From assembly GCA_019116705.1 (NCBI GenBank), contig DXBF01000016.1, positions 1-50,740 on the forward strand: DNA of 50,740 bases, in the 5' to 3' direction. How positions within the stretch are numbered: the first letter of the stretch is position 1; each line of letters opens with the position of its first letter. Under the pieces are notes generated by a model that was not told where the DNA came from, searched no databases, and saw nothing but the letters and a program-made list of their open reading frames with translations. Position numbers and translations under genes: made by a program. The stretch is from Candidatus Gemmiger avistercoris. GTDB lineage: Bacteria > Bacillota > Clostridia > Oscillospirales > Ruminococcaceae. Positions 34,004 to 41,684 of this stretch are shown piece after piece.

Positions 34004-34888
34004 TCAGTACAGCAGCTTGTCGTCCGCCACATTCTTCAGGTGCATGCCGTAGGGCGATTTGCCGTAGCGCGCGGCGCTTTCCAGCAGCTTTTCCTTGCTG
34101 ATCCAGCCGTATTTGTAGGCGATCTCCTCCGGGGCCGAGATCTTGATGCCCTGCCGCTGTTCGATGGTCTGCACAAAAGTCGCCGCTTCCACCAGCGAAT
34201 CCATCGTGCCGGTATCCAGCCAGGCATAGCCACGTCCCAGCAGCTGTACGTCCAGCTTGCCCTGGCGCAGATACATCTCGTTCAGGGTGGTGATCTCCAG
34301 TTCGCCGCGGGCGCTGGGGCGGACCTGCTTGGCCATCTCGACCACGTCTTTGTTGTAGAAATACAGGCCGGTGACCGCGTAGTTGCTCTTGGGCTGCGCC
34401 GGTTTTTCCTCGATGGAAGTGGCGTGGCCCTCCCTGTCGAAAGCCACGACGCCGAACCGTTCGGGGTCGTTGACATAGTAGCCGAACACCGTGCAGCGGC
34501 CTGCCTCGGCGTTGGCGGCGGCCGCTTTCAGGCGCTTGGAGAACCCGGCGCCGTAGAAGATATTATCCCCCAGCACCATGGCGCAGCAGTCGCCCCCGAT
34601 GAACTCTTCCCCCAGCAGGAACGCCTGGGCCAGCCCGTCCGGGCTGGGCTGGACCTTGTATTGCAGATGCAGGCCGTACTGGCTGCCGTCCCCCAGCAGG
34701 GCTTCAAAACGCGGGGTATCGGTGGGGGTGGAGATGATCAGAATGTCCTGGATGCCCGCCAGCATCAGGGTGGACAGCGGGTAGTAGATCATCGGTTTGT
34801 CATACACAGGCAGCAGCTGTTTGGAGGTGACCATCGTCAGCGGGTACAGTCTTGTGCCGGCGCCGCCGGCAAGGATAATCCCTTTCAT
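34004..34888 (-). CDS. rfbA: Glucose-1-phosphate thymidylyltransferase
   Basis: Makes dTDP-glucose from dTTP and glucose-1-phosphate. The 294-residue protein has the nucleotidyltransferase signature [17 protein letters not shown] at its N-terminus. Typical segments follow: [38 protein letters not shown] and [16 protein letters not shown]. The ATG at 34888 follows AAGGAGTTGTAACG; an upstream in-frame ATG at 34966 is rejected. It is the first gene of the operon. Confidence 0.97.
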
Positions 34889-34980
34889 CGTTACAACTCC
34901 TTCGTACGCAATGTACCGTGCGCGCCGCCCATCCCACGGGGAAAGTCCCTTCGGGCATAATCTCACACAATAGTAAGATT

Positions 34981-35009
34981 ATTATAGCGCATTTGTTCCC
35001 CCCGCGCAA
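34981..35009 (-). promoter_or_regulatory. Promoter of rfbA-rfbD-rfbB
   Basis: TTGCGC (35004-35009) and a perfect TATAAT (34981-34986) are 17 bp apart on the minus strand. Confidence 0.7.
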
Positions 35010-35086
35010 GGGGAAAATCCCTCCCGGCGCCCGGCCGGGGCGCGCTGGGGATTGTTTCCAGTTTGTTACCTTTTGTTTACGAACGC

Positions 35087-35115
35087 TTGACGGACGCCCC
35101 GTCATATGATAGAAT
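35087..35115 (+). promoter_or_regulatory. Promoter of the sortase-substrate lipoprotein
   Basis: TTGACG (35087-35092) and TAGAAT (35110-35115) have the optimal 17-bp spacer. A leader of roughly 75 nt precedes the TTG start codon. Confidence 0.82.
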
Positions 35116-35198
35116 ATACGCAGTGTAAATGTCGATGGTCCGACGGCCATCTTTGGAAATACGTTTTGGACTTTGAATTTTAAGGAGGCGTTTTCTCG

Positions 35199-35534
35199 TT
35201 GAAACGCTTTTTATGTGCGGCGTTTTTTATCGCGCTTGTCGCGCTGCTGGCCGCCTGTGGAATGTTGAATCGCGCTGACAGTGCGGCGCAGGCCACGGCC
35301 ACCCCGACCAACTCCACCTCCCGCACGCAGGAGAACGAGCCCGTCACCGTCCATGAGACGTCCGCCAAAGTAGATGTGGTAACGGCCCAGAGCAGCCAGA
35401 CGCCCTCCTCCACGGCGGCGCCGGAACAGGTTTCCACCCCTGCCACCGGGGATTTCCCGGTATTGTATCTGGCCGGGATCGTGGGATTGATCCTGGTTTG
35501 TTCCGCCGGCCTGCTGATGCTGCGAAAGATCTGA
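35199..35534 (+). CDS. Small lipoprotein with a C-terminal TPATG sortase sorting signal
   Basis: The 111-residue protein has two surface-attachment signals. Residues 1-20 form a lipoprotein signal peptide with lipobox LAAC (Cys20). Residues 80-84 are TPATG, followed by Asp, about 22 hydrophobic residues and an RK tail, the layout of a cell-wall sorting signal. Only about 60 Thr/Ser/Gln/Glu-rich, cysteine-free residues lie between them. Clostridial class B sortases are known to use (S/P)PxTG-like motifs, and a class B sortase gene follows directly. The start is TTG at 35199, 9 nt after AAGGAGGC. Function is unknown; either signal alone would make an ordinary lipoprotein or wall protein. Confidence 0.85.
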   Translation: MKRFLCAAFFIALVALLAACGMLNRADSAAQATATPTNSTSRTQENEPVTVHETSAKVDVVTAQSSQTPSSTAAPEQVSTPATGDFPVLYLAGIVGLILVCSAGLLMLRKI

Positions 35535-35540
35535 CCTGAA

Positions 35541-35566
35541 GCGCCCCCTGAACGGGGCGTTTTTTA
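35541..35566 (+). terminator. Intercistronic terminator between substrate and sortase
   Basis: A 6-bp CGCCCC/GGGGCG stem (35542-35547 with 35554-35559) is followed by TTTTTTATTTT. It would lower sortase expression relative to its substrate unless there is read-through. Confidence 0.75.
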
Positions 35567-35600
35567 TTTTATGCCCGCCGGGCAGGGAGGTGAACGGCAG

Positions 35601-36539
35601 ATGGCCAAACGTTACCGCAGGCTCCGCGGCAACAGCGCGTATTACCCCTTCGCCGCGCGCACGGGCCTGCGCGCGCGGCAGCGGCGTCAGGCCCGGCTGC
35701 TGCGCCGGGCCGGGGCCGCGGCGCTGCTGCTGGCCGCCGTGCTGCTGGTGCGCCAGACGGTCTTTCACGGCGGCCAGCCGGAACCGCCCGCCATGCTGCC
35801 CGCCGCCGCTGCCGCCACCGGCGAGAGCGCCCGCGTGACCGTCCAGCCGGTGCGCGCCACCCGTGACGCGCTGGCGCAGACGCAGGCCGCCGATGCGGCC
35901 GCTCGCACCACGCCGGAGACGGCGGCCACGCCCGCGCCTTCCCAGACGGCCCGGGTGCTGCCCGCCTACCGGGAACTGTACGAGGAAAACCCGGACCTGA
36001 TCGGCTGGCTGCGCATAGACGGCGCCGATGTGGACCTGCCCGTTGTGCAGACGCCCGGCGACAACGAATACTATCTGCGCCGGGGCTTTGACGGCTACTA
36101 TGCCGCCGGCGGCACCCTGTTCCTGGACGGGCAGTGCGCCGCCGGCCCGGGATCTTCCACCGACAACTGGCTGGTCTACGGGCACAACATGCGCGACGGT
36201 TCCATGTTCGGCCACCTGACCCGCTACCGGGAGGAATCCTTCTGGCGGGAGCACCCCACCTTCACCTTCGATACGATCTACGAGCCGGGGACCTGGCAGG
36301 TGGTCGCCGCCCTGGACACCACGCTGGGGGCCGACGAACTGCCCTACTATACCTTTTTCGACGCCGCCAGCAAACTGGAATGGGAGCAGCGTGTGGAGGC
36401 CATTCTGGATCTGGCGCTGTACGATACCGGCGTGACCCCGGAGTACGGGCAGCAGCTGTTGACGCTTTCCACCTGCGGCGATCACCGCCCGAACACCGAG
36501 ACCCGCTTTGCCCTGCTGGCCGTGCGGGTGGACGAATGA
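35601..36539 (+). CDS. srtB: Class B sortase
   Basis: Membrane transpeptidase that cuts a sorting motif after Thr and joins the protein to an amino nucleophile. The 312-residue protein has a basic N-terminus, a transmembrane helix (residues 37-52), and an Ala/Thr/Pro-rich linker to about residue 120. The sortase domain follows with His195 (WLVYGHNM), Cys292 (TLSTCGD) and Arg302 (TRFALLAV). ELYEENPDLIGWLRIDGADV and EYYLRRGFDG are class B traits. The ATG at 35601 follows GGGAGGTGAACGGCAG. Its adjacent candidate substrate carries TPATG. Naming it srtB reflects class only. Confidence 0.93.
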   Translation: MAKRYRRLRGNSAYYPFAARTGLRARQRRQARLLRRAGAAALLLAAVLLVRQTVFHGGQPEPPAMLPAAAAATGESARVTVQPVRATRDALAQTQAADAAARTTPETAATPAPSQTARVLPAYRELYEENPDLIGWLRIDGADVDLPVVQTPGDNEYYLRRGFDGYYAAGGTLFLDGQCAAGPGSSTDNWLVYGHNMRDGSMFGHLTRYREESFWREHPTFTFDTIYEPGTWQVVAALDTTLGADELPYYTFFDAASKLEWEQRVEAILDLALYDTGVTPEYGQQLLTLSTCGDHRPNTETRFALLAVRVDE

Positions 36540-36551
36540 GCGTTTCTGCAC

Positions 36552-36580
36552 TTGCATTTTGGCCGGGAATCCGCTATGAT
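36552..36580 (+). promoter_or_regulatory. Promoter of the YdbC-like and HD-domain genes
   Basis: TTGCAT (36552-36557) and TATGAT (36575-36580) are 17 bp apart and lie 36 nt before the next start codon. Confidence 0.7.
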
Positions 36581-36616
36581 GTTGCAAGACCTGTATATGA
36601 AAGGAGTTTTTGCTGT

Positions 36617-36838
36617 ATGGCAGAATTTACCTACGAGATCACCGAACGCATCGCGGTGCTTTCCACCAATGCGCGCGGCTGGGAGCGCCAGCTCAACATG
36701 ATCAGCTGGAACGGCAATCCCCCGAAGTACGACATCCGCGACTGGTCCCCCGACGGCAGCCGCATGGCGAAGGGCATCAGCCTGACGGCGGAGGAGCTGA
36801 AATCCCTGCGGGACATCCTCAACGATCTGGAACTGTGA
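36617..36838 (+). CDS. YdbC/PC4-family single-strand nucleic-acid-binding protein
   Basis: The 73-residue protein matches the bacterial PC4-like family: YEITERIAVLSTNARGWERQ, then SWNGNPPKYDIRDWSPD and KGISLTAEELKSLRDIL. PC4/YdbC proteins are dimeric single-stranded-DNA binders. The ATG at 36617 follows AAAGGAG. The HD-domain gene starts 7 nt after its stop, so the two are co-transcribed. Confidence 0.88.
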   Translation: MAEFTYEITERIAVLSTNARGWERQLNMISWNGNPPKYDIRDWSPDGSRMAKGISLTAEELKSLRDILNDLEL

Positions 36839-36845
36839 GGCAGCC

Positions 36846-37448
36846 ATGGAAGACTACCACGCCCAATTTGTGGAGATCTACACCAAAAGCATCACCCGCC
36901 CCGGCGCCGACCGCCTGCTGAACTGGCTGGAAACGACGGACTTTTTCACCGCGCCCGCCTCCACCCGTTTCCACGGGGCCTGCGAGTACGGGCTGGTCAT
37001 GCACAGCATCAACGTTTACCACGCCATGATGCAGCACTTTTTCACCGAGGGCGAGAACGCCGAAAGCTACGCCATCTGCGGGCTGCTGCACGACCTGTGC
37101 AAAGCCAACTTTTACAAGGTCAGCACCCGCAACGTGAAAAACGACGCCACCGGCCAGTGGGAGAAAGTCCCCTTCTACCAGGTGGCGGACCAGCTGCCCT
37201 ACGGCCATGGCGAGAAGAGCGTGTACCTGATCGAACATTTCATGCGGCTGAAAACGGCGGAGGCCGTGGCCATCCGCTGGCACATGGGCGGTTTTGACGA
37301 CGCGGTGCGCGGCGGCAGTTTTGCCGTCAGCGACGCCTACAACACCTACCCGCTGGCGGTCAAGCTGCACATCGCCGACCTGACCGCCACCTACCTGATG
37401 GAACAGGGCACCAGCAGCGTGGAAAACGGCCACCCCAAAAGCAAATAG
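36846..37448 (+). CDS. HD-domain phosphohydrolase-like protein
   Basis: The 200-residue protein has the HD superfamily metal ligands: an early His in LVMHSINVYHAM, His-Asp in CGLLHDLCKANF, a later His pair in YGHGEKSVYLIEHFM, and a distal Asp in HIADLTATYLM. The substrate is unknown; HD proteins act on nucleotides or cyclic dinucleotides, among others. It is co-transcribed with the PC4-like gene and ends at a bidirectional terminator. Confidence 0.85.
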   Translation: MEDYHAQFVEIYTKSITRPGADRLLNWLETTDFFTAPASTRFHGACEYGLVMHSINVYHAMMQHFFTEGENAESYAICGLLHDLCKANFYKVSTRNVKNDATGQWEKVPFYQVADQLPYGHGEKSVYLIEHFMRLKTAEAVAIRWHMGGFDDAVRGGSFAVSDAYNTYPLAVKLHIADLTATYLMEQGTSSVENGHPKSK

Positions 37449-37460
37449 CCCTCCAAGCCA

Positions 37461-37498
37461 ATCTGCCCCGCCGGGAATCCGGCGGGGCAGATCTTTGT
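37461..37498. terminator. Bidirectional terminator between the HD gene and the anti-sigma gene
   Basis: A perfect 14-bp stem (37461-37474 with 37479-37492) with loop GAAT is followed by CTTTGTTT on the plus strand. The flanking genes are convergent. Confidence 0.85.
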
Positions 37499-37508
37499 TT
37501 ATCAGGCT

Positions 37509-38702
37509 TTACCGGGGCAGCGTCACCGTCCACTCGGCCAGCAGGGGCAGGTCCTCGCGGTTTTTATCCACGAAGCGGACGGTCAGTTCCGCCGCGTCCT
37601 CGGGCGCCGCGTCCAGATAGGCACGGAACACCGACGTTCCCCCCTCCTCTGTGCGCAGTTCTTTGGCAGGTTCCAGGCTGGCGCCGTCCGCGGTGAACAC
37701 CTGCAAAGCCGGACTCACGCCGTTCTCCTGCGGGGCGACGGAATAGGTCACGCAGGTCTCGCCGGGCGTTGCGGCGACGCTTTGCAGCGTTATGCCGTTT
37801 TGGCTCCCCGCGCTGAAAGTTCCCATCCGGGTGAGGGTCTCGTTTGCCGACACCGTAAAGGACAGCGCGTAAATGCCGTTCAGCGGGGTCTGCTGCGGCT
37901 CGCCTTCCCCGCTGTACACGACCCCCACCAGATCGGACAGCGTGATCTCCGCCTGCATATCCTGCGTATTGCCGGTATAGCCCGCCAGGTCATAGTCCAG
38001 TTCGCAGACGAAGGTGTGGTCGTCCTGCTTGCTGAAGCGGGGCAGCATGTCGCAGGAGACGGGCTGCCCGTTGAGGGTCACGCCGCCGTACAGGGCGTTG
38101 GCTTCCGCTTCGGTGGCCGTTTCGTCCAGCAGCGGCGGGTCGATGGTCACGGCGTCGAAACCGGCCAGGCTGTCATCCTCCGCCGTCAGGACCAGGCCCA
38201 CCCGCAGATACAGTTCATCGCAATAGATCTGGCGCAGAGTCAGCGTATAATTTTCCGGGTGCAGTGCGTCCCCCGTCCCGGCGTCCCCGTCCTGCTGGGC
38301 CGCCATCACTTTGGGGGCGTCCTCCGGCAGAGATTCCGGGGCGTTCTGCGCCTGCACCTGGGCCTGCCGGGCATATTCGTCCAGCTGGCCGCTCTGCAGC
38401 TGCGCTTTGTCAAGACGGTTGATATAGGCAAATACATCGCCCAGGACCGGCAGGCTTTCTGCCAGCGCCGGGTTGAAGCCGTTCACCCCGGCCAACAGCA
38501 GCACGCAGGCCGCACCGCTGGTCAGCACCCGGCTCCAGACGGGCCATCCCCGTCCGGCATGGCGGGACTTTTTGCGCTTTTGTTCCCGCCCGACCTGTTT
38601 CAAGACCGTCTTGGTCAGCCGGGACAGTTCCGTCCCGGTCAGGGGCATATCCGCGCTGCTCAAATCGTTCAGTTGTTCCATCAGGTCATGATCCTTATAC
38701 AT
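37509..38702 (-). CDS. DUF4179-type transmembrane anti-sigma-like protein
   Basis: The 397-residue protein has a cytoplasmic N-terminus (about 55 residues, with a basic stretch QKRKKSRHAGR) and one transmembrane helix (LTSGAACVLLLAGVNGF). The motif ALAESLPVLGDVFAYINRLD follows, typical of DUF4179 proteins encoded beside ECF sigma factors, and then a large extracellular beta-rich domain. It probably holds the sigma factor inactive until an envelope signal is sensed. It overlaps the sigma gene by 8 nt (ATGTATAA), indicating translational coupling. Confidence 0.87.
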   Translation of the reverse strand: MYKDHDLMEQLNDLSSADMPLTGTELSRLTKTVLKQVGREQKRKKSRHAGRGWPVWSRVLTSGAACVLLLAGVNGFNPALAESLPVLGDVFAYINRLDKAQLQSGQLDEYARQAQVQAQNAPESLPEDAPKVMAAQQDGDAGTGDALHPENYTLTLRQIYCDELYLRVGLVLTAEDDSLAGFDAVTIDPPLLDETATEAEANALYGGVTLNGQPVSCDMLPRFSKQDDHTFVCELDYDLAGYTGNTQDMQAEITLSDLVGVVYSGEGEPQQTPLNGIYALSFTVSANETLTRMGTFSAGSQNGITLQSVAATPGETCVTYSVAPQENGVSPALQVFTADGASLEPAKELRTEEGGTSVFRAYLDAAPEDAAELTVRFVDKNREDLPLLAEWTVTLPR

Positions 38703-39249
38703 GCGTGATCCCTCCTTCGCGCAGTTGGATACGGAGCCGGTCCCGGCCGCGGCACAGGCGCGTGTTCACGTTGGAAACGCTCAATCCCAGTGCCGCCGCG
38801 ATCTCCCGGCTGGATTGCAGCAGGTAATACTTGCGCAGAAAGATCTCCCGGTCCGGCGGTTCCATGGCGGAAACAAGCGCGCCTACCTGCTCGGCGGCCT
38901 CCCCGGCGGGGTCGGGCAAAAGGTCGGCCAGGGTCTGCATCAGGTCCTCGCTCAGCGGCACCTCCTCCCGGCGGCTGAGCGCCCGGTAGCGGTTGATGCC
39001 CGTGTTGCGCGCGGTGACGATCAGCCAGGCCCGCAGCGGGACCTGCCGTTCCGCCAGTTTGCCGGCGTTGCGCCACAGGGCCACAAAGACGTCCGCCATG
39101 CACTCTTCCACATCGCGTTCCTGCCCGGGCAGGATACGGCGCAGGATACCGCGTACCAGGGAGGCGTAATCCCGCATAGCCCAGCGCAGCCCGGTCTCGG
39201 GGTCCCGCAAAATAGCCCGCGCCAGGTCTGTGGTGCTGGTGTTTTCCAT
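38695..39249 (-). CDS. ECF-family RNA polymerase sigma factor
   Basis: The 184-residue protein has sigma region 2 (RDYASLVRGILRRILPGQ, then DVEECMADVFVALWRNAGKL and RAWLIVTARNTGINRYRA). Region 4 is PDREIFLRKYYLLQSSREIA with the helix-turn-helix ALGLSVSNVNTRLCRGRDRL. There is no region 1 or 3. It is translated from an ATG after AAAGGAGGAAATGGT and coupled to the DUF4179 anti-sigma. Target genes are unknown; autoregulation is usual for the class. Confidence 0.93.
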   Translation of the reverse strand: MENTSTTDLARAILRDPETGLRWAMRDYASLVRGILRRILPGQERDVEECMADVFVALWRNAGKLAERQVPLRAWLIVTARNTGINRYRALSRREEVPLSEDLMQTLADLLPDPAGEAAEQVGALVSAMEPPDREIFLRKYYLLQSSREIAAALGLSVSNVNTRLCRGRDRLRIQLREGGITHV

Positions 39250-39320
39250 ACCATTTCCTCCTTTATCATCCTTTCATCCTGGTAAACAACCGGCGCCGGA
39301 AAATTCTTACAGCTGCCGTG

Positions 39321-39362
39321 CTTTCTTTGCAAAGAAAGGGGCAATAGCGCAAAAGGTTGCGC
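39321..39362. repeat. Two palindromes upstream of the sigma-factor gene
   Basis: CTTTCTTTGCAAAGAAAG (39321-39338) is a perfect 18-bp palindrome. GCGCAA-AAGG-TTGCGC (39347-39362) is a 6-bp hairpin. Both lie in the 195-nt gap between the DivIVA-like gene's terminator and the sigma gene. Confidence 0.55.
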
Positions 39363-39390
39363 AGACAGGCAAAGCCCAGGTTATCCGGCG

Positions 39391-39429
39391 GCAAAAGAAA
39401 AAGCCGTCCCGGCTCTGGCCGGAACGGCT
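39391..39429 (-). terminator. Terminator after the DivIVA-like gene
   Basis: A 12-bp stem with one G-U pair (39418-39429 with 39402-39413) is followed on the minus strand by TTTTTCTTTT. Confidence 0.85.
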
Positions 39430-39444
39430 GGCAATATCCTTTTT

Positions 39445-40428
39445 TCAGGACGAAGATTTTTTTGTCTGGCTGTCGATCTTATCGATCTCATCCCGCAGCA
39501 TCTGGGACACCGGGTGCCGCACATTGCGCAGCCTGCGGCCGCCAGCCGGGGGTTTGGGCTGGGGAGAGCTGCTGCGCGGCCTTACGGGCTGCGCGGTGGC
39601 CTTCACACGGAACTGGGGCGCCGCCGGTTTGGCCGCAGGGGCCGGTTCCGGGGCGGAGGCTTCCGGGGTGCCCTGGGCAAAATCCCGCATCTCGGTCCCC
39701 AGTTCCCGCAGTTCTGCCTCGGTATCGTCCAGCGCCTGATAGATGGCCTGGGTCAAGCCGTCCAGGTCGAGGGTGGCGGCGCTCAGGCGCTGATCCACCC
39801 GGGCCAGACGGTCCCGCACCAGCATCACACCGGCGGCGATGCCGCGGGCGTTTTCCGCCATGCGGGTCTTTTGCGTTTCCGCCTGCTGCTTGAGTTCTTT
39901 CTCTGCGCTCTCGGCATACAGCTGGGCATCCGCCAGAATTTTGCGGGCCTCCAACCGCGCTTCCCGGATGGCGTCCGGCGCAGGCGCGGCAGACCCGCCC
40001 TGCCGTGCGGCAGACAGCTGCTTCTGCAGGTCCTCCACCTGCTGCTGCAGGTCGTGGCATTTGAGCTGCCAGATGTTGGCGTTCTTCTGGCTTTCCTGCT
40101 GGCCGGACTGGTATGTATCCACCTGCCGCTGCAGGACCGCCAGCTGGTCTTCGCCTTCCCGGCATTTGGATTCCGCCGCGTCGGCGCGCTGGTTGGCGGC
40201 GTCCACTTCCGCCTGCAGCGCCGCGATATGGCTGTCGGAATCGGTGCGCTCCCGGCGCAGGGATTCCAGTTCAGATTCGAGCTTGTGCAGCTTCTGCTCG
40301 TACTCCATCTTGCGCTGCTGGCTTTCGTCGGCCAGCGCGTTCATGTAGGCCAGCACATCATTCTTATTAAAACCCATCCATTCGGAGCGGAACCCCCGTT
40401 CCAGAATGTTTTTTGTATCAGATGGCAT
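39445..40428 (-). CDS. DivIVA-like coiled-coil protein
   Basis: The N-terminus FRSEWMGFNKNDVLAYMNAL resembles the DivIVA/GpsB membrane-binding module. Residues about 35-135 form a long coiled coil rich in Glu, Gln and Ala (EYEQKLHKLESELESLRRER, EVDAANQRADAAESK). A second helical region at about 150-240 and a Pro/Ala-rich C-terminal tail complete the 327 residues. DivIVA proteins mark curved membrane at poles and septa. Its place directly after ftsZ (35 nt) supports a role in division. The tail is longer than usual. Confidence 0.82.
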   Translation of the reverse strand: MPSDTKNILERGFRSEWMGFNKNDVLAYMNALADESQQRKMEYEQKLHKLESELESLRRERTDSDSHIAALQAEVDAANQRADAAESKCREGEDQLAVLQRQVDTYQSGQQESQKNANIWQLKCHDLQQQVEDLQKQLSAARQGGSAAPAPDAIREARLEARKILADAQLYAESAEKELKQQAETQKTRMAENARGIAAGVMLVRDRLARVDQRLSAATLDLDGLTQAIYQALDDTEAELRELGTEMRDFAQGTPEASAPEPAPAAKPAAPQFRVKATAQPVRPRSSSPQPKPPAGGRRLRNVRHPVSQMLRDEIDKIDSQTKKSSS

Positions 40429-40463
40429 GGCGTTTTACATCCTCTCGCGGCAAATGGCAAAAA

Positions 40464-41684
<1,221 letters not shown>

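Follow-up and report, generated by a model that had tools for sequence, protein, structure and literature searches.

A conserved predicted mini-lipoprotein with a sortase signal beside a class B-type sortase in Gemmiger: a candidate membrane-wall tether

The 50,740-nucleotide stretch of contig DXBF01000016.1 from Candidatus Gemmiger avistercoris (referred to as the window) carries a gene for a 111-residue protein, here called the mini-protein, that has a lipoprotein signal at its N-terminus and a sortase signal at its C-terminus, and is followed directly by a gene for a class B-type sortase. The source genome is a 1.95-Mb draft of 69 contigs that is 83% complete. Both signals are kept in all 33 homologues found in the genus, which places the observation beyond chance. 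The best explanation, although unproved, is that the protein would be anchored at both ends: a dedicated sortase would join the lipidated mini-protein to peptidoglycan, giving a covalent membrane-wall tether that resembles Braun's lipoprotein in function. Judged from the sequences, we assign this reading a probability of roughly 0.57.

A protein is usually taken to be anchored either by lipid or by a sortase. LocateP, for example, sorts out LPxTG proteins before the lipoprotein search (PMC2375117) and keeps the two as separate classes, so that proteins with both signals would be filed under one class and missed. If the proposed tether exists, it would link membrane and wall directly and covalently in bacteria of Gram-positive descent, and could help to explain how the membrane is kept at a set distance from the wall. 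Searches of the open-licence PMC literature, subscription papers lying outside their scope, turned up no natural protein described as combining a lipobox with a sortase signal, and nothing usable on budding and the cell wall in Gemmiger.

Conservation of the gene pair across the genus

Protein searches covered the source genome and 60 relatives, with the genus, taken here as Gemmiger in the broad sense, represented by 35 genomes (G000-G034). Of these, 33 encode a full-length homologue of the mini-protein, among them G. formicilis ATCC 27749 and G. gallinarum DSM 109015; the 23 homologue loci that are named are nearly all assigned to Gemmiger, with one Subdoligranulum and one Oscillospiraceae bacterium. 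Weak matches in G011, G036 and G049 were judged not to be homologues. In every one of the 33 loci the mini-protein gene is followed directly by the sortase gene in the same orientation, but just 24 have rfbA as the divergent neighbour of the pair, which identifies the pair as the constant unit. An orthologous sortase is encoded in all 35 genus genomes; in the two that gave no mini-protein match it is cut by a contig edge (the matches begin at bases 18 and 16), so that a mini-protein gene upstream is not visible there.

The preliminary description of this DNA, which had pointed out the two signals, proposed looking for the same pair in relatives with both of them kept. This was found in all 33 loci: the cysteine and the TPxTG motif are intact in every homologue, and none lacks Cys20 or PxTG. 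The fewest changes per column of the mini-protein were counted along a tree computed only from the sortase. Cys20, T80, P81, T83 and G84 each show no change, with eight changes at position 82, the x of TPxTG. The signal peptide averages 4.6 changes per column and the spacer between the two signals 7.2; sixteen of the 104 columns filled in at least 28 rows never change (M1, K2, C20, V49, V51, E53, A56, T80, P81, T83, G84, G96, L97, G104, L105 and L108). Invariant signals combined with a variable x form the pattern that would be expected if both ends were processed, x being the free residue of a sortase site.

Across the homologues the spacer from the cysteine to TPxTG is 51-68 residues long (median 59; eight rows measured from Cys17 were corrected by hand by subtracting 3) and is rich in Ala, Thr, Ser, Val and Pro. 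Within this otherwise free and disordered stretch V49, V51, E53 and A56 are invariant, and neither a structural model of the mini-protein nor a profile search of the PDB yielded a structure or family that explains this V-x-V-x-E-x-x-A core.

Beyond the genus, a profile of the mini-protein was searched against 394 genomes of the order, with at most 12 first-look candidates scored per genome, so that a distant relative could be missed, and matches were obtained in 237 genomes (the source genome included). Of these, 29 order-wide loci were read, and in 28 the match is to a lipoprotein signal peptide plus low-complexity stretches in another protein: the 28 qualify as lipoproteins under a loose lipobox pattern, with the match mainly in the N-terminal half. 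The exception, also the best-scoring candidate, is a Ser-rich open reading frame (ORF) of 110 residues with a PTTGD end (L124, genome G223); it was rejected as a homologue, its SATC lying inside an apparent signal-peptidase-I signal. L124 encodes two tandem Ser-rich proteins (1453-1785 and 364-1275) with APTTGD and APGTGD ends, of the signal-peptidase-I type and without a lipobox. Plasmids and phages gave no mini-protein match at E values up to 1.

The two signals, the sortase and expression of the pair

The preliminary description had read LAAC with Cys20, TPATG-D at residues 80-84, a hydrophobic stretch and an RK tail in the 111-residue ORF, and all of these were confirmed (Table 1); its estimate of about 60 residues between the anchors agrees with the 59 counted from Cys20 to Thr80, a spacer rich in Ala, Thr, Ser and Pro. 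The signal peptide consists of 19 residues with LAA directly ahead of Cys20, and the hydrophobic stretch extends to about residue 108. The AlphaFold2 (AF2) model of the mini-protein is poor and shows no fold (mean predicted local distance difference test, pLDDT, 62; predicted template modelling score, pTM, 0.27), consisting of two helices, the C-terminal one at 88-109, and a disordered spacer. The PDB profile search returned the N-termini of lipoproteins (LpqN, LptE and others) together with a weakly matching LPXTG chain (9t9v, E 0.055).

Table 1. Features of the mini-protein and sortase gene pair in the window
Feature	Position	Strand	Basis
Promoter-like site TTGACG-17-TAGAAT (sigma-70-type) of the mini-lipoprotein gene	35087-35115	+	Sequence scan
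Ribosome-binding site AAGGAGG	35182-35188	+	Sequence
Mini-lipoprotein / putative sortase substrate gene, 111 aa, TTG start	35199-35534	+	ORF and homologues
Codons of the lipobox L17-A18-A19-C20	35247-35258	+	Cys20 invariant 33/33
Codons of the conserved spacer core V49-x-V51-x-E53-x-x-A56	35343-35366	+	V49, V51, E53, A56 invariant 33/33
Codons of the sorting motif TPATG-D, residues 80-85	35436-35453	+	T, P, T, G invariant 33/33
Hydrophobic helix and short cationic tail of the sorting signal, residues 86-111, RKI end	35454-35531	+	Sequence and model
Terminator-like hairpin between the mini-lipoprotein and sortase genes	35538-35563	+	Sequence scan
Class B-type sortase gene, 312 aa (His195, Cys292, Arg302); alternative start 35571	35601-36539	+	

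The N-terminus has the features of a lipoprotein, a short hydrophobic signal peptide leading up to a lipobox cysteine (LAAC in the window; all 33 homologues have the Cys). Among the homologues the residue at -1 is Ala in 32 and Ser in one, that at -2 is Ala in 28 and Val in five, and that at -3 is Leu in 18, Cys in eight and Phe in seven, with Gly (28), Ser (4) or Ala (1) at +1. Signal peptidase II (LspA, PF01252) is encoded in the source genome and in 20 of 21 further genus genomes searched; the exception is an 83%-complete draft. Cys20 is a probable site of lipidation.

The C-terminus has the parts of a sortase substrate, namely an xPxTG motif (TPxTG in 33 of 33), a hydrophobic helix and a cationic tail, with R or K at both 109 and 110 in all 33 homologues, and this arrangement is consistent with cleavage of TPxTG and linkage to peptidoglycan. 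The terminal stretch GLIL-x-CSAGLL-x-L-[RK]-[RK]-I (35484-35531) is far more conserved than the transmembrane (TM) helix of the sortase, and Cys101 within it is present in 31 of 33 homologues.

The sortase ORF begins at 35571 or 35601, the ATG at 35601 having the better ribosome site (GGGAGGTG at 35585-35592). Its product passes the cut-off of PF04203 (36.3 bits against 26.6) and scores 123.7 bits with TIGR03064 (sortase_srtB), which does not reach the curated 153.75 but is still the best NCBIfam match by far (E 7e-36). The nearest solved structures by sequence are SrtB of B. anthracis (2oqw, 1rz2), L. monocytogenes, S. pneumoniae and S. aureus, with SrtB structures from C. perfringens and C. 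difficile also among the nearest, and the top 19 Foldseek matches of its AF2 model (pLDDT 73, pTM 0.68) are all SrtB structures (TMt 0.69-0.85). All 33 sortases carry His195, Cys292 and Arg302 unchanged. The N-terminal helix is long enough to be a TM segment and is joined to the catalytic domain, at about residues 116-312, by a long, poorly conserved linker. The cytoplasmic N-terminus (35601-35700) has a conserved stretch just ahead of the TM segment (RYRRLxGDSAYYPFAAR in the alignment consensus), and an extra cysteine outside the active site, Cys179, is also invariant.

The interpretation in the preliminary description is partly supported. That the class B-type sortase is dedicated to the mini-protein finds support in the adjacency in all 33 loci, in the invariant catalytic residues and in a motif that differs from the 25 other genus signals read (see below). 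The description had also stated that clostridial class B sortases with (S/P)PxTG motifs are known; SrtB of C. difficile is one, cleaving (S/P)PXTG between T and G (PMC4155245), and the P4 residue of its motif is thought to set specificity (PMC5118464). TPxTG, one residue away, is therefore a natural neighbour of the C. difficile motif.

Between 34800 and 37500 three promoter-like sites were found against 0.5 in shuffles, and five terminator-like sites against 2.7, the latter little above chance. TTGACG or TTGACA with exactly 17 bp spacing recurs upstream in 32 of 33 loci (best match within 220 nt, with a shuffle control for 34800-37500 only). From the terminator between the genes, the preliminary description had proposed that much more substrate than enzyme is made. 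This claim on the ratio is weak: a loose scan finds a hairpin with a T-run between the genes at just 22 of the 33 loci, several of these being poor examples, and none at the other 11; the mini-protein gene usually starts with TTG (26 of 33; ATG in four, GTG in two and one unresolved). Further downstream, at 37509-41684 on the other strand, are genes that read as sigma-factor-like, accompanied by a membrane regulator-like gene, DivIVA-like and ftsZ-like, a neighbourhood common to part of the genus only.

The proposed tether and alternative explanations

In the proposed mechanism, Sec would export the mini-protein, Cys20 would be lipidated and signal peptidase II would trim the signal peptide, placing the N-terminus in the outer leaflet of the cytoplasmic membrane, with the C-terminal helix also membrane-held at first. 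The adjacent membrane-bound class B-type sortase would then cut TPxTG between Thr83 and Gly84 and transfer the new threonine end to a peptidoglycan precursor. After maturation this would leave a mostly unfolded, Ala/Thr/Ser/Pro-rich chain of about 64 residues, bound to the membrane by its lipid and to the wall by its threonine, a tether whose length, at 51-68 residues between Cys and TPxTG, would be roughly fixed. An extended chain measures about 0.35 nm per residue, so 60 residues could span about 20 nm, which is of the order of the reported membrane-wall gap in some Gram-positive cells. Each step beyond the sequence signals, the acceptor and the tether function included, is one that we infer. 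On a fuller version of the proposal opinion is evenly poised: this would be a genus-wide, sortase-built counterpart of Braun's lipoprotein, in which the sortase has the lipoprotein as its only substrate and the fixed-length membrane-peptidoglycan strap perhaps sets the gap.

A dedicated enzyme is suggested by the sorting signals found elsewhere in the genus. The source genome, as far as the draft goes, encodes two sortases over the Pfam cut-off, the second (L037 6312-7292, contig C11) between genes read as glmS-like and pheT-like, and no sorting-signal ORF was found in the 13 kb read around it. Four of the 11 PF00746 matches in this genome are sorting signals on reading (IPQTGD, VPQTSD, VPQTGD and IPQTGD), all in proteins of at least 414 residues, of which two have complete N-termini of the signal-peptidase-I type and two are cut by contig ends. 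The second sortase perhaps serves these large IPQTG and VPQTG surface proteins. A survey of relatives gave 52 PF00746 matches in nine genomes; 30 loci were read, of which nine had no legible C-terminal motif and were dropped, and 21 motifs from eight genomes were readable, their first position always being I, V, L or M. Together with the four of the source genome this makes 25 signals from nine genus genomes, apart from that of the mini-protein, and every one starts with one of these residues. A pattern scan of three genomes (G000, G004 and G026, two of them single-contig), which covers only motifs with Asp next, found TPxTGD with a C-terminal TM segment exactly once per genome, always in the mini-protein, and the other four of its seven matches are not sorting signals. 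Because the motif is not shared by the other signals read and occurs once in each of the three genomes scanned, the gene pair looks private. A lipobox was flagged in none of 10 ORFs with sorting-signal-like ends (one probably spurious) at 40 loci of other sortases, 31 from other genera and nine paralogue loci in the genus, a weak control given that most N-termini are incomplete.

Several findings weigh against a doubly anchored product of a private enzyme. Threonine ahead of the proline is not unique to the mini-protein, since a TPQTGD fragment with a long tail lies beside a paralogous sortase in G028 (L206), and outside the genus TPKTG and TPDTG are found next to sortases (L182, L203); the incomplete source genome may also lack further sortases or substrates. 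The strict lipobox consensus [LVI][ASTVI][GAS]C, as quoted in PMC5817068, is fitted by only 18 of the 33 lipoboxes, the other 15 deviating at -3. Phe at this position occurs in six of the 28 order-wide lipoproteins as well, and the Cys of eight homologues in at most one (L149, LLSCTACS, which is ambiguous, LLSC and CTAC overlapping). The mini-protein is absent from the 11 PF00746 (Gram_pos_anchor) matches of its own genome at E values up to 10, and its tail, just [RK][RK][IV], is shorter than in the other substrates read. The usual TTG start suggests modest translation, which speaks against the protein being very abundant. In the C-terminal helix, columns 96-108, its second half, change 1.4 times on average, the figure for the sortase TM segment being 7.0. 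Such conservation seems to exceed what a discarded anchor needs and, together with the invariant V-x-V-x-E-x-x-A, indicates that the protein may be more than a passive strap. The observation gained strength from the main comparative tests (homologues, gene pair, per-column changes and catalytic residues), but not from PF00746, the strict -3 residue or the TP-type motifs found elsewhere.

The deviations at -3 would sit well with an ordinary small wall-anchored protein, cut by signal peptidase I or left with an unlipidated cysteine and anchored by the sortase, whose apparent lipobox would be a conserved look-alike. Other short substrates of sortases have been described, among them the family modelled by NF053819 (compared below), which matches 19 of the 33 mini-proteins and has a cut-off that the window protein does not reach. 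Two short matches to the family with a signal peptide were read. L274, over that cut-off, has no Cys in its signal peptide, and L277, under it, provides an example of such a look-alike, with an ISAC that agrees with the lipobox consensus but is followed by ALA, a likely signal-peptidase-I site. A chance lipobox can therefore occur in a small sorting-signal protein, and for this reason weight is placed on the invariance in 33 of 33 and not on the motif of any single sequence. Cys20 shows no change while the surrounding signal peptide averages 4.6 per column, Ala or Ser at -1 and Gly, Ser or Ala at +1 are found in all 33, and the mini-protein profile retrieves lipoproteins in 28 of 29 order-wide loci, leaving the look-alike unlikely. 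An accessory role is about equally unlikely: the lipoprotein would retain its C-terminal helix and be bound, unreleased, by the sortase, for example to gate, localise or inhibit it. The conserved helix half, the invariant V49, V51, E53 and A56, which suggest a binding partner, and the constant pairing of the genes would all suit such a role, but invariant T, P, T and G around a free x is the pattern of a cleaved sortase site and not of a general interface.

A change of acceptor, in which the sortase would attach the lipidated mini-protein to an amine of a second surface protein and so equip that protein with a transferable lipid handle, appears improbable. Some class B sortases do work in pilus systems (3psq and 4y4q are among the fold matches), and the product would be lipid-anchored whatever the acceptor; however, no third gene is kept beside the pair, the downstream genes for a 73-residue and an HD-domain protein being missing in several loci, and no pilin-like neighbour was noticed, although neighbours were not annotated systematically. 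More improbable still is a peptide-signal precursor, with the exported signal peptide or the sortase-released helix as the active product. Some enterococcal pheromones derive from lipoprotein signal peptides, and the helix half is unusually conserved. Against this, the signal peptide is variable, averaging 4.8 changes per column at residues 2-19, such a role would leave the invariant core of the spacer unexplained, and no receptor gene was noticed, none having been looked for.

Comparison with known systems

The Gemmiger sortase resembles class B SrtB in its fold, its His-Cys-Arg residues, an N-terminal helix long enough for a TM segment and an xPxTG-type motif, the SrtB of B. anthracis being closest in sequence and that of C. 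difficile in substrate motif. It differs in scoring below the TIGR03064 cut-off, in the TPxTG motif, in the long, poorly conserved linker and in apparently having one substrate gene, which adjoins its own.

Small LPxTG proteins of about 120 residues occur in WxL / DUF916 gene clusters (PMC2530867). The mini-protein resembles the NF053819 (EF2685/EF0750) family in length (about 105-120 residues), N-terminal signal peptide and C-terminal sorting signal. NF053819 matches the homologues at E values up to 0.001 and covers the window protein end to end, but at 24.6 bits against a cut-off of 47 the mini-protein differs in falling below the family's threshold. No WxL cluster was noticed beside the Gemmiger pair, the neighbours not having been scanned with WxL models. 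L277 (about 1501-1776, genome G799 of the same phylum), which combines an LPRTS end with ISAC, is a possible second overlap of lipobox and sorting signals.

Ordinary clostridial lipoproteins share with the mini-protein a signal peptide, a lipobox and, mostly, a Ser/Thr/Pro-rich stretch after the Cys, but the 28 that were read, which had been picked by their N-terminal halves, are 143-586 residues long and have room for a folded domain.

Lpp, Braun's lipoprotein of enterobacteria, lies in the outer membrane as a helical trimer and is joined to peptidoglycan by L,D-transpeptidases via its C-terminal Lys. No Lpp family is among the Pfam and NCBIfam profile matches of the mini-protein, and no direct comparison with Lpp was made; the two are regarded as unrelated, and the parallel proposed is one of function only. 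If the double-anchor reading holds, the mini-protein would share with Lpp a small size, lipid at the N-terminus and a bond to peptidoglycan at the C-terminus made by a dedicated transpeptidase, with the difference that Gemmiger uses a sortase for this and that its tether would start from the cytoplasmic membrane.

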